DNA of 40,675 nucleotides. Source: a virus. The notes beneath the pieces were generated by a model, which saw nothing but the letters and a program-made list of their open reading frames with translations, searched no databases and had not been told where the DNA came from. Position 1 is the stretch's first letter; each line of letters begins with the position of its first letter. The DNA lies in IMG/VR virus record IMGVR_UViG_3300048930_000266, positions 1 through 40,675 of that record. One strand, written 5' to 3'. Below, piece by piece: positions 8,035 to 37,588 of the stretch. Both the position numbers and the translations under genes were made by a program.

Positions 8035-8234
8035 GCAGCATGCCGACCTACGACCTCTATACGCTCACTAGCTGGCATGAACTAGATCACCGGATTGCGG
8101 AGGACATTGAGACGTTGGAAGAGGCGCTCGATCAGGCCCAAGCACAGGCAAACGATCGCGACCGTCCCATCCAAATCCTGTACGACGGTGATGGCAGCCG
8201 CTTCGAGACGGTCTACCCGGAGATCCAATCATGA
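8031..8234 (+). CDS. Hypothetical small acidic protein
   Basis: 67 residues from a GTG at 8031 that overlaps the VRR-NUC stop; an ATG at 8040 is an alternative. It has an acidic helix rich in Glu/Asp/Gln (EDIETLEEALDQAQAQ) and a short beta-hairpin-like end (IQILYDGDGSRFETV). The layout resembles small DUF-type proteins common in phage early regions, with no assigned role. ATGA overlap downstream. Confidence 0.6.
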   Translation: MSSMPTYDLYTLTSWHELDHRIAEDIETLEEALDQAQAQANDRDRPIQILYDGDGSRFETVYPEIQS

Positions 8235-8800
8235 CCGCCACGCCCCGCACCATCCTCCGCTCGTGGATCCGGGAACAGATCGATGCTGGCGTGGACCGGG
8301 ACGCCGCGATCGAGCATGCGGTCCACCGGGCGATCGGTGACGACCAGCTGGTCGCTGGCCTGGTGACACAGGTCGCTCGGCACGAAGCCAGCGGCATCCT
8401 CGTCAAGACGCACAGCCTGCCCCGCCGCCATAAGGAACCAAAAGCAGCACAGGAGGCCATCGCCGAGGAAGTGGCCGCGCTGCCGGCGGACTCGCCTTTG
8501 GCCAAGCTCACTCCGCAGTTCGACAGCACCCGCGCATCCCGCATCCTGGTCGACCTGTCCGCCATGACGAAGCCGCAGGTACTCAACATGGCGAAGGAGT
8601 TCGAGGGCGCGGCCCAGAAGAACGAAGAGCTCGCCGCCTTTTGCCGGGCCGTCGCTGACCAGCTGCGTGATGGGCAGACCGTCAGTGAGGTGTTCGACCG
8701 GTCAGGCCTGCTGACCCTGCGCTCACGCATCACGACCCACACCACCACCCGCGTCTTCCGCGGTCAGACCCAGATCGCCCTGACCGAACGCACGAATTGA
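8231..8800 (+). CDS. Hypothetical early protein
   Basis: 189 residues, predominantly helical, with no Cys and no recognisable motif. The middle has a low-complexity Ala/Glu part (KAAQEAIAEEVAALPA). A C-terminal segment (TLRSRITTHTTTRVFRGQTQ) is basic and Thr-rich. Last tightly overlapped member of this run; the next gene has its own RBS after a 12-nt gap. Confidence 0.6.
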   Translation: MTATPRTILRSWIREQIDAGVDRDAAIEHAVHRAIGDDQLVAGLVTQVARHEASGILVKTHSLPRRHKEPKAAQEAIAEEVAALPADSPLAKLTPQFDSTRASRILVDLSAMTKPQVLNMAKEFEGAAQKNEELAAFCRAVADQLRDGQTVSEVFDRSGLLTLRSRITTHTTTRVFRGQTQIALTERTN

Positions 8801-8811
8801 AAGGACCCACC

Positions 8812-9582
8812 ATGGCCGCTACCGCACCATCCCTCGCCGTCATCGAACCCGCCCTCACCCCGGTCGTTGGTCTCTGGGCGGAAGAGCGCAGCAAGCTCTT
8901 CGCCCGCTACCGGGCCACCATCCAGTTCACCGGCCGCGTCATGGGTGGCGTGCCCCAGAAACCGGAGATCATTGAGTCCTGGCTCCGGCAACGCATCATC
9001 GGCGGCGACGAGGAAATCCGCCTCCAGATGCTCCGGACGATGGACGAACTCGGCTACGACGTGTCGAACGACATGAGCCACGAGGAGCTGCTGGCGATGT
9101 CCAAGCAGTTCGCCCAGGAGCGGAGCGGCAACACCTTCCGCCGCGACGAGACAGGTCTGTTCATCGCCGACTACCAGGTCAAGGCGATGCTGAAAGAGAA
9201 CGTCTCGATTCTCTACCCGTACAACGAGCCAACCTATCGGATGGGGTTGACGAAGAAAGCCGCCAAAGCCTTCTGGGCGGAGCGGGTGTTCGTGGACGAA
9301 TACAACATCCACCTCTGCCGCGATGGCGTGCCTCTGACCGAGCCGGACGGCAAGCACCTGCAGATCGGCCACGTACCGTCACCGAAGGGCCCCAAGTCCA
9401 CCCTGACCTACTACGACTACTGCATCCAGCCGGAGCTCACGTTCACGATGTCGAGTGCCGAGGACCGGATCGAAGGGGAGATGTGGCAACGGGTGCTGCT
9501 GCTGGCCGAACGGAATGGCCTCGGGGCCATCCGGTCGCTGAGCTCAGGGCAGTTCACGGTGACGGCATTCGACAAACTCTGA
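8812..9582 (+). CDS. Conserved-looking phage protein, unknown function
   Basis: 256 residues from the ATG at 8812, preceded by AAAGGA 7 nt upstream; an in-frame TTG at 8797 lies inside the previous gene's end. The first part reads GRVMGGVPQKPEIIESWLR. The middle has aromatic and acidic patches (ILYPYNEPTYRMGL). The C-terminus ends in a beta-rich GAIRSLSSGQFTV. I recognise the general look from other phage genomes but cannot name a function. It is the last gene before the 5-nt periodic element, so it is a reasonable first candidate for a protein that interacts with that element; this is adjacency only. Confidence 0.7.
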   Translation: MAATAPSLAVIEPALTPVVGLWAEERSKLFARYRATIQFTGRVMGGVPQKPEIIESWLRQRIIGGDEEIRLQMLRTMDELGYDVSNDMSHEELLAMSKQFAQERSGNTFRRDETGLFIADYQVKAMLKENVSILYPYNEPTYRMGLTKKAAKAFWAERVFVDEYNIHLCRDGVPLTEPDGKHLQIGHVPSPKGPKSTLTYYDYCIQPELTFTMSSAEDRIEGEMWQRVLLLAERNGLGAIRSLSSGQFTVTAFDKL

Positions 9583-9626
9583 TTATTTGCCACAGGCGCA
9601 CACGACTCCCCGTCGAAGCGTGGGAT

Positions 9627-10186
9627 AGACAACCCAATTCGCGCCGACTTACCGACTCAGACCTGACCTCTCCACCGCGACCAGCCAACACTGAACAGGA
9701 CAATCCTTACCGTCACGACCAGCCAAACCAAACCAGGTCCCACCAGTACGACTACCCTGCCAAAGCCGTGCCACGCCAAGACGACTGGCCATCTCCAGAC
9801 AGGACTCCCCAACTCATGACGACCAGCCTAACCCACTCCCAACTGGCCACCGCGACTATCCTACCCATCCCGAACCCGTTCGTATCGACTAGCCAACCCG
9901 AGCCACGCCTTCCCGAGTTGCCACGACTACCCACACCTCCGCATGCCAGCACGTCACGACTACCCTTCACTGACCCGACCGTGACAACCCGCCACGACTT
10001 CCCATTCCTTCTCCAGCCGAGACCCACCGCTACGACTATCCGACCCTCGCCTATCCGCCGCCCACCGCGACGACTACCCAATCCCTGCCGAACCTTCCCG
10101 ACGCAACGCGACCGACCTTGCCGTCCCTGATCATCCCTGATCGACGTACCTAGCCACGGCATCACTCGCCTCGCCATATCACTGCT
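9627..10186 (+). repeat. 5-nt periodic C-phased element with 33/38-nt superperiod
   Basis: This long gap holds no credible gene. Read in 5-nt steps it is a run of about 103 pentads, NNCCN in consensus, with C at position 4 in 101 of 103 by hand count (exceptions GCCAA in the 9749 block and AGTTG in the 9886 block). Fifteen blocks begin CGACY (once CGACG): 9645, 9678, 9716, 9749, 9782, 9820, 9853, 9886, 9924, 9957, 9995, 10033, 10071, 10109 and 10142. Spacing is 33 or 38 nt only, seven of each. Each block is CGACY plus five or six pentads plus a 3-nt phase reset. Sequence outside the phased positions is not conserved between blocks. The last block runs eight pentads into the extended -10 of the int promoter. 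Five is not a multiple of three, so coding does not explain the pattern. Confidence 0.9.
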
Positions 10187-10207
10187 AGAATGCGAACACA
10201 TGTTCGC
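10183..10207 (+). promoter_or_regulatory. Integrase promoter with overlapping SOS box
   Basis: Extended -10 TGC-TAGAAT (10183-10191) with no good -35. Immediately downstream is GCGAAC-ACAT-GTTCGC (10192-10207), a perfect match to the GAAC-N4-GTTC LexA site of Gram-positive and actinobacterial hosts. The site covers the expected transcription start near 10198, so a bound repressor would block initiation. An ATG at 10200 opens a 62-codon frame out of phase with int; I regard it as fortuitous. Confidence 0.7.
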
Positions 10208-36141: not shown

Positions 36142-36434
36142 GCGACGACCAGGAATACACCTCGATCGTGAACCTGGGCCAACGATTTGGCATCTCCAAA
36201 AAGGCCCAGCTGGTGCTCTCCAACCTCCACATGAAACCGGTTCCCTTCTCCATTGGCGCTGATGGCCTGCCGATCGTGAGCGAAGAAATTCGCCTCCAGA
36301 TCGCTGGGGCGACGCTGGCAGCCGATGAGCCCCACACCAAGCGGCCGCCATTCAAGTCCAAGGAGGAATGGTTGCAAGAGCTCGGAGCCATCGTCCTGGC
36401 AGACGATCCGACGTTCCTTGACTTGCCACAATAG
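36138..36434 (+). CDS. Hypothetical small acidic protein
   Basis: 98 residues from the ATG at 36138, overlapping the previous TGA. An N-terminal segment (SIVNLGQRFGISKKAQLVLSNL) could be a helix-turn-helix; the rest is acidic (GATLAADEPHTK, LADDPTFLDL). Its stop falls inside the next promoter palindrome. Function unknown. Confidence 0.6.
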   Translation: MSDDQEYTSIVNLGQRFGISKKAQLVLSNLHMKPVPFSIGADGLPIVSEEIRLQIAGATLAADEPHTKRPPFKSKEEWLQELGAIVLADDPTFLDLPQ

Positions 36435-36519: not shown

Positions 36520-36881
36520 CTGAACGGTCCGTCATCGTCGTGGGGGACGATCCGGGTCGCGACATGTGTCGCGTAGTTCATAAGCGCCTTGATGACGCGA
36601 CTACTACCGAAGCATTACACGTCCCTGGCGACCTAGTGCAGCCGGTGATTCTTTCGTCCAGTCATCCCGAGGTTGTGCGCCACGAACTGCGCAGATACAC
36701 CGCACTGATGAACCAGGAAGCAGCTCTGCGAAGTATTCCGGAATCAGAGCGCCGAACCGAGGAACGCCGGCGGGCAAGGCGGGAGCGCACCATGCGAGGC
36801 CACTGCACGACGTGCGGCGGGAGCAGCTGGAGCGAAGACCATGAAGGCAACTCGATAGCCTGCCCTGAGTGCAATGCCTAG
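36516..36881 (+). CDS. SOS-promoter gene next to the repressor; candidate antirepressor
   Basis: 121 residues from the ATG at 36516, coupled to the 20-aa ORF; a GTG at 36492 is an alternative start. The middle is charged and helical (RSIPESERRTEERRRARRER). The C-terminus has CTTCGGS and CPEC, a zinc ribbon. It runs convergently into the repressor; both end in the shared CTAG (36878-36881). In coliphage 186, a LexA-controlled antirepressor (Tum) inactivates the repressor. This gene occupies an equivalent logical position, but no sequence similarity to Tum is claimed. Confidence 0.6.
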   Translation: MTERSVIVVGDDPGRDMCRVVHKRLDDATTTEALHVPGDLVQPVILSSSHPEVVRHELRRYTALMNQEAALRSIPESERRTEERRRARRERTMRGHCTTCGGSSWSEDHEGNSIACPECNA

Positions 36882-37276
36882 TCGCCTGGATTTTCATGCC
36901 TCGCCCGTGCCCTGCTACGCTCGGCTAAATCCCGAAGCGTAGTTGCCATGTGGCGAGTTAGATCCTCGTTTCGCTCCCAATCTATTGCCTTGACCAATCC
37001 AAGAATCTCGGCGAGGTTGGAATCTGGATCGATCTCCGGATCCTCCGGCCGATGCCCCGCTTTCGTCAACACGACATCGACATCCAGGGCCATAACGTCG
37101 GCAATCCGGTCGGCCATTTCTGGCGTCGGAGTCCGCTGACCAGTCGCCCAGCGCGACACGACCGCGTTCTGCACATCGAGGCGCCTCGCAAGGTCCGCCT
37201 GGGTCCACTCGCGTCGCGCCAATTGCCGCTTTAGCCATAGTGCAAAGGTGCCTTCTGGCACTCTCTCGATACTCAT
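36878..37276 (-). CDS. Phage repressor, Cro/C1-type HTH
   Basis: 132 residues from the ATG at 37276. Residues 13-65 (LKRQLARREWTQADLARRL, then NAVVSRWATGQRTP, ADRIADVMALDVD) form a clear XRE/HTH_3 domain. There is no LexA-like autocleavage peptidase, so induction must come from elsewhere. The C-terminal half is charged and helical (about 75-132). It is divergent from the Cro-like gene and convergent with the SOS-promoter gene. An operator-like repeat lies inside its first codons. No obvious RBS; possibly leaderless. Confidence 0.85.
   Translation of the reverse strand: MSIERVPEGTFALWLKRQLARREWTQADLARRLDVQNAVVSRWATGQRTPTPEMADRIADVMALDVDVVLTKAGHRPEDPEIDPDSNLAEILGLVKAIDWERNEDLTRHMATTLRDLAERSRARARHENPGD
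37248..37261. promoter_or_regulatory. Operator candidate O1 (GTGCC-TTCT-GGCAC)
   Basis: A perfect 5-bp inverted repeat with a 4-nt centre inside the repressor's first codons. It matches the consensus GTRCC-N4-GGYAC shared with 37299-37312 and 37541-37554. The position just downstream of the repressor start fits autoregulation. Confidence 0.6.
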
Positions 37277-37289
37277 ATGGCAATGATGC

Positions 37290-37318
37290 TTGCGCAAAGT
37301 GCCAGACGGTACTACAAT
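37290..37318 (+). promoter_or_regulatory. Early (Cro-like) promoter
   Basis: -35 TTGCGC (37290-37295), 17-bp spacer, -10 TACAAT (37313-37318). The ATG at 37325 is 7 nt after the -10, again a leaderless arrangement. It probably drives the whole early operon, which runs on through the contig join. Confidence 0.75.
37299..37312. promoter_or_regulatory. Operator candidate O2 (GTGCC-AGAC-GGTAC)
   Basis: Fills the end of the spacer between -35 and -10 of the Cro-like promoter and abuts the -10. It matches GTRCC-N4-GGYAC. Occupancy would block that promoter directly. Centre to O1 is 51 bp, close to five helical turns, so the two sites lie on roughly one face. Confidence 0.65.
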
Positions 37319-37324
37319 GGTTCC

Positions 37325-37588
37325 ATGAGAACGATTCAAGCGGGGCGACGCTACTTCGCCACTCACCAGCTCCGAACGCGCATCCTCGAACAGGGTCGCA
37401 GTTTCCGGTGGGTTGCCCAGCAAATCGAGCTGTCCGACAGCCATTTCAATCGCGTCCTGTCCGGTGAACGATGGGTCACTGAGGCGAATGCCCGGATGGT
37501 GGCTGCCATCCTCGGGACTGACTTTGACGTGCTTTGGAAAGTACCAACTGGTACCGAAATGGCACCAAAAGGAGTATTAGTCGCATGA
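37325..37588 (+). CDS. Cro-like HTH regulator
   Basis: 87 residues from the ATG at 37325. RTRILEQGRSFRWVAQQIEL, then SDSHFNRVLSGERW and ARMVAAILGTDFDVLW is an XRE-type HTH. Divergent from the repressor with the operator between them, hence Cro-like. It overlaps the next gene's ATG by 4 nt. Confidence 0.8.
   Translation: MRTIQAGRRYFATHQLRTRILEQGRSFRWVAQQIELSDSHFNRVLSGERWVTEANARMVAAILGTDFDVLWKVPTGTEMAPKGVLVA
37541..37554. promoter_or_regulatory. Operator candidate O3 (GTACC-AACT-GGTAC)
   Basis: Third copy of GTRCC-N4-GGYAC, inside the Cro-like gene near its 3' end and upstream of the 37585 gene. It could be a distal site for repressor looping or for control of the next gene. It is part of coding sequence (VPTGT region), so chance symmetry is possible. 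Confidence 0.5.

Follow-up and report, generated by a model that had tools for sequence, protein, structure and literature searches.

A five-nucleotide-phased element beside a Cas7/Csm3-like gene of a temperate phage as a very probable VIPR guide array

What could account for a stretch of phage DNA in which C recurs in a five-nucleotide register, lying between a gene of no confident name (8797–9582) and the integrase gene int? The stretch belongs to a virus sequence of 40,675 nt (IMG/VR record IMGVR_UViG_3300048930_000266, hereafter the window), a temperate tailed phage by its RecT, helicase, DNA polymerase/primase-like protein, tyrosine integrase, portal, capsid and tape measure. A DNA similarity search against known phages gave a single match at chance level, no relatives of the integrase were found, and Chloroflexia genomes held no close relatives beyond one locus (L347). 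A sequence-only reading of the element had counted 103 pentads, 101 of them with C at position 4, and 15 CGACY anchors, all of which we reproduced to within one or two: an independent dynamic-programming trace over 9630–10185 gave 103 phased C and 15 resets, and C occupies position 4 in 75 and position 3 in 55 of the 77 non-anchor pentads. The claim that the anchors are spaced at 33 or 38 nt, with no other distances, holds throughout an unbroken chain of 14 CGACY anchors (9645, 9678, 9716, 9749, 9782, 9820, 9853, 9886, 9924, 9957, 9995, 10033, 10071 and 10109). The autocorrelation of C at lag 5, proposed as a check against shuffled sequence, reached z = 6.8 (9.5 at lag 33 and 9.8 at lag 38), and the register lies far above that of 1000 dinucleotide-preserving shuffles (best phase score 31.7 versus 10.9; longest anchor chain 14 versus 3 at most). 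A coding reading was rejected; the element is non-coding because the 38-nt spacing, not being a multiple of 3, breaks the frame, and because the overlapping ORFs encode low-complexity, frame-inconsistent peptides. Rfam gave no matches, and the suggestion that its last block runs into an extended -10 of int found no support in a consensus scan.

The adjoining gene offered a way into function. Searches of Pfam, PHROGs, NCBIfam and PADLOC returned no confident name for its product, only weak Csm4/Cas6 matches; its AlphaFold2 model (pLDDT 79.6), however, matched CRISPR RAMPs in every case among the Foldseek matches listed (best E-value 9.6e-7), and aligned to Csm3 (9ash_F) with a VIA Z of 13.7 over 168 residues at 3.7 A. 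An alignment of homologs showed a RAMP-like glycine loop (G-loop), conserved in 38 of them. The protein models as a CRISPR Cas7/Csm3-type RAMP. The gene immediately upstream (8231–8800) aligns with genes upstream of the RAMP gene in related loci, where a start-overlapping neighbour is conserved. No CRISPR array or Cas partners were seen by the window RAMP, and a tandem-repeat finder gave no repeat-spacer array.

The sequence-only reading could name no family for the element; one has been described in a 2026 preprint (PMC13142463), in which VIPR systems consist of phage-encoded RAMPs together with vrRNAs of alternating GGY/NN pentads. Through its NN letters a vrRNA recognises dsDNA with one base skipped, in most cases the wobble base, and the systems are directed against competing phages and against other VIPR systems (PMC13142463). 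We conclude that the element at 9631–10185 is very probably a guide array belonging to a VIPR system of the phage, and accordingly refer to the RAMP gene as vipr. This reading draws on three computed results, namely that a RAMP gene lies beside the array, that related phages show the two side by side again, and that relatives' arrays decode to phage genes; the mechanism is inferred from published VIPR experiments. The element almost certainly functions through its minus strand. Read on this strand, what had been seen as an anchor plus a 3-nt reset becomes a GTC inserted between pentads every 6–8 pentads, the pentad ahead of it usually ending in TA or TG to give GGNTAGTCG, and the 16 resulting blocks rebuild the minus strand verbatim (Table 1). 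The earlier proposal of selection on a 5-nt register agrees well with the data, but the positions it regarded as free would be guide letters, and the strand to be read is the minus strand. The GG/NN pentads of the window follow the VIPR pattern, while the Y of GGY is kept only in part, position 3 being a pyrimidine in about half of the pentads (Y 53%), which corresponds to a "related consensus"; on the G-rich strand, 14% of the window's pentads have A as their second base.

Table 1. Features of the putative VIPR locus in the window (positions are those of the window; a dot marks a feature assigned to neither strand).
Feature	Position	Strand	Remarks
Candidate vipr-accessory gene (vap), 189 aa	8231..8800	+	Stop overlaps vipr start
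Vipr-like RAMP protein, 261 aa	8797..9582	+	Predicted Cas7/Csm3 fold, C-terminal G-loop NGLGAIRSLSSGQF; conserved part ~residues 27-261
vipr site matched by the 3'-terminal block of L361	9277..9300	+	Codons AERVFVDE, 16/16, eight pentads, 1-nt skip at wobble
Candidate 3' end/tail of array transcript	9583..9630	-	No significant fold; stability not above that of shuffled sequence
Putative VIPR vrRNA array	9631..10185	-	16 blocks of GG(N)NN pentads, most of 6-8 pentads, GTC between; shuffle and RAMP-linkage tests
Array RNA ends (predicted)	5' end 10185, 3' end 9631	-	
GTC punctuation	9646..10145	-	+ strand GAC of CGACY anchors (14 chained anchors plus 10142)
Perfect LexA/Cheo-type palindrome CGAACACATGTTCG	10193..10206	.	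8 nt upstream of array 5' end, between array and int

We then asked how constant the association between vipr and pentads is. In a first survey, 12 further viral loci had a homolog of the window protein adjoining a pentad array. Our first pattern searches of viral contigs were too loose and mixed real arrays with chance matches; a search by protein alone yielded 92 loci, namely 11 from genomes, 80 viral ones and the window itself. Counting as linked those whose pentad signal within ~1.5 kb of the RAMP gene exceeded the 99.9th percentile for distant windows, 77 of the 92 loci have an adjacent array, and the signal occurred elsewhere in 4 loci; related phages thus keep the phase, whose loss the sequence-only reading would have counted against it, and the register is retained in dozens of relatives. 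The consensus over 63 loci has G at position 1 (97%) and position 2 (68%) with positions 4–5 nearly uniform, and at the third base one clade is rich in C and another in G. Resets in these 63 loci are marked by GTC (844 8-nt steps and 298 9-nt steps), and in 61 of the 63 the G-rich strand is antisense to the RAMP gene, for upstream and downstream arrays alike. Arrays in related loci range from a few hundred to >1800 nt. Between phages whose vipr genes are 90–96% identical some guide blocks are common and others unrelated, blocks having been replaced while vipr remained 92% identical; this turnover is by whole units, with the GG retained.

These results bear on two other accounts. The plus strand of the array is C-rich and G-poor and lies upstream of int, as a neutral degenerate minisatellite or a C-rich spacer (Rho utilisation or terminator-like) could be; however, the register statistics, the linkage to one protein family and the turnover of blocks with GG retained would be surprising in a decaying repeat or in rut sites, and we give this account next to no weight. 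Spacing of 5 nt is the hallmark of TRAP sites, and the sequence-only reading had drawn a conceptual parallel to TRAP; attenuation by a ring protein on phased triplets, controlling int or early transcription, would share this spacing, but the linked protein has a RAMP rather than a TRAP fold, the phased motif is GG rather than NAG, and the arrays vary widely in length and lie on either side of vipr, all of which makes such attenuation extremely unlikely. The more general idea of that reading, an oligomeric or filament-forming protein contacting ~5 nt per subunit, agrees well with the adjacent Cas7/Csm3-like RAMP and the register kept in relatives, although it foresaw neither the partner gene, nor the minus strand, nor RNA-guided recognition of DNA. 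The G-quadruplexes that it also proposed are not required to explain the element.

To decode the arrays we took positions 4–5 of the pentads in relatives' blocks and searched 7.8 Mb of DNA on both strands with skips of 0, 1 and 2; this DNA was gathered partly through vipr, and the evidence for targets consists of two guides from relatives. Nine-pentad matches of 18/18 letters were found for these two guides at skip 1, whereas skips of 0 and 2 yielded none; when the pentads of the guides were shuffled, 55 runs produced 3 guides with such a match, or 0.055 per run (Poisson estimate P ~0.0015). The 3'-terminal block of L361 matches the vipr codons LAERVFVDE of three other loci (L387, L436 and L219) at 18/18, in frame and with the wobble base skipped. 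The vipr of L361 itself matches at 14/18, using TTG, AGA and TGC at this site, the AGA being the only one in the gene; this suggests synonymous self-escape, in one case, and with 14/18 not unusual among homologs. The second guide, a block of L407, matches terminase codons VRGPHGLGK (Walker A) at 18/18, first in four loci and then, across varied wobble bases, in ~50 of 80 terminase loci, the latter not being independent because these loci were gathered on account of the match; the L407 contig itself is without such a terminase. Each decoded match fits a single GTC-delimited block without extension into its neighbour, and a block is therefore most likely one guide of, in the window, 6–8 pentads.

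In addition, block 6 of the L404 array matches L581 (6584) and L592 (6283) on the minus strand at 16/16 over eight pentads with a skip of 1; these two phages have related terminases (75% and 73% identity), and the homologous region of L404 itself differs at the site.

The strongest competing account is that a RAMP coats the RNA without any guide role, for RNA protection, as a decoy of CRISPR or other RAMPs, or in control of the int leader, with the NN letters free. The 16 blocks of the window had no significant target in local DNA, nor did blocks paired across GTC at various offsets, and block 1 searched against viral contigs gave 17 matches, in AT-rich unrelated contigs, where ~20 were estimated by chance; the window blocks are also shorter than published guides. 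Against this, relatives' blocks decode in frame to phage genes at skip 1 only, and blocks turn over as units, so that we regard a non-guide RNA as improbable. On the guide-array reading, and by analogy with the SUSP1 experiments, the minus strand would be transcribed into (GGNNN)n blocks with a GTC between one and the next; on this RNA Vipr subunits would polymerise, one per pentad, gripping the GG; letters 4–5 of each pentad would pair with dsDNA, one target base per pentad being skipped, usually at the codon wobble; and the complex would silence genes of competing phages or prophages.

How does this locus relate to described systems? SUSP1-type VIPR (type II; phiSUSP1, KT454805, our L439) likewise has a phage RAMP adjoining tandem pentads in which GG is fixed and NN varies, and its 1-nt skip rule is the one that decodes the window's relatives, some guides of which aim at other VIPR genes. 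As we read the SUSP1 locus, its tracts of GGTNN pentads end in GGGTAG, similar to the GGNTAG ending of window blocks. However, SUSP1 vrRNAs are separate RNAs of ~100 nt with 9–16 GGT/GGY pentads and a structured 3' tail each, on the same strand as vipr, whereas the window has one continuous, GTC-punctuated array of 6–8-pentad blocks, antisense to vipr and with a relaxed third base. The published range of 9–16 repeats per vrRNA is stated for the SUSP1 and P. fulva clades (PMC13142463); most window blocks fall below it, while relatives such as L361 have 9–11. The preprint gives seven VIPR types, some with related consensus or staggered arrays (PMC13142463), and the architecture of its supplement S18 is probably the published counterpart of that in the window, the decoded matches here differing in their use of single GTC-delimited blocks. 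Sequence similarity between RAMPs is in general insignificant (PMC13142463), and so it is between the window Vipr and SUSP1 Vipr (profile comparison, probability 2–16%, aligned over the G-loop region). The Cas7/Csm3 backbones of class 1 CRISPR (types III and VII) resemble the window protein in fold, G-loop and an oligomeric RNA-binding backbone, predicted for the window, but have a period of 6 nt rather than 5 and a contiguous rather than non-contiguous guide. The sole match to the window Vipr in the phage collection was to Microcystis phage Mae-JY09 (PP395641; 44.5% identity), where a C-rich, CGAC-anchored array lies downstream of the Vipr homolog; the homolog is annotated as hypothetical and the array is unannotated. 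The window array is very probably a new VIPR member, and may be of a type set apart by short GTC-punctuated blocks, a relaxed third base and an orientation antisense to vipr.

The unannotated VIPR locus at the right end of Mae-JY09 (L438, PP395641.1 37713–38976) is of the window type. A second array-linked protein family (A6; L084:7515–8369, L145:1585–2178, L191:5078–5956 and L208:90–767), with the G-loop GIGDFRQEKGKGNYGQF, matches the SUSP1 Vipr at an hhalign probability of 96.4%. In L348–L352 (Streptosporangiales) the vipr-proximal array end carries a common hairpin-like GCGACGCCGT...ACGGCTAGCC, identified by eye, a candidate single 3' tail.

The palindrome between the array and int (Table 1) is of a kind for which none was expected by shuffling, and no such palindrome is conserved beside relatives' arrays. 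Judged by its sequence it may be an SOS operator, placing the array under SOS control. We tentatively speculate, as a possibility less likely to be right than wrong, that the locus represents a VIPR type of its own, where numerous short guides (6–8 pentads, 12–16 specified letters) lie on a single transcript antisense to vipr and lack individual tails, nothing but a GTC handle (GGNWW-GTC-G) standing between them, the block being the minimal guide unit and the whole SOS-switched through a LexA-type box perhaps shared with int. A second site, GAACNNNNGTTC, at 36434 has a Cro/CI-type HTH gene (36878–37444) a few hundred bases away, and SOS or repressor control is possible there.

The VIPR model gains independent support here from sequence alone, through the linkage seen across 92 loci in the protein-first sample and through the in-frame targets that skip 1 recovers in vipr and terminase. 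It appears that phages direct guides against one another's VIPR genes, and one case hints at synonymous self-escape. GTC punctuation makes such arrays machine-readable, and as phage proteins of the window Vipr family are annotated as hypothetical, many systems are being missed.

Other pentad arrays also came to light. In L157 (7651–10170) and L227 (571–3060) arrays of GACNN pentads are broken by a conserved insert containing GTTTATCACTCAGACAAGGAGGCTGTTTTTCCTGAC; the L157 array had no match in Rfam, and these arrays probably represent another VIPR-like architecture. Degenerate pentad arrays with other fixed letters (CGCNN/GCGNN, GTCNN, GTTNN and CA-type) occur in L196, L141, L188, L145, L140, L237, L208 and L213, several of them with interspersed conserved or hairpin-like segments.
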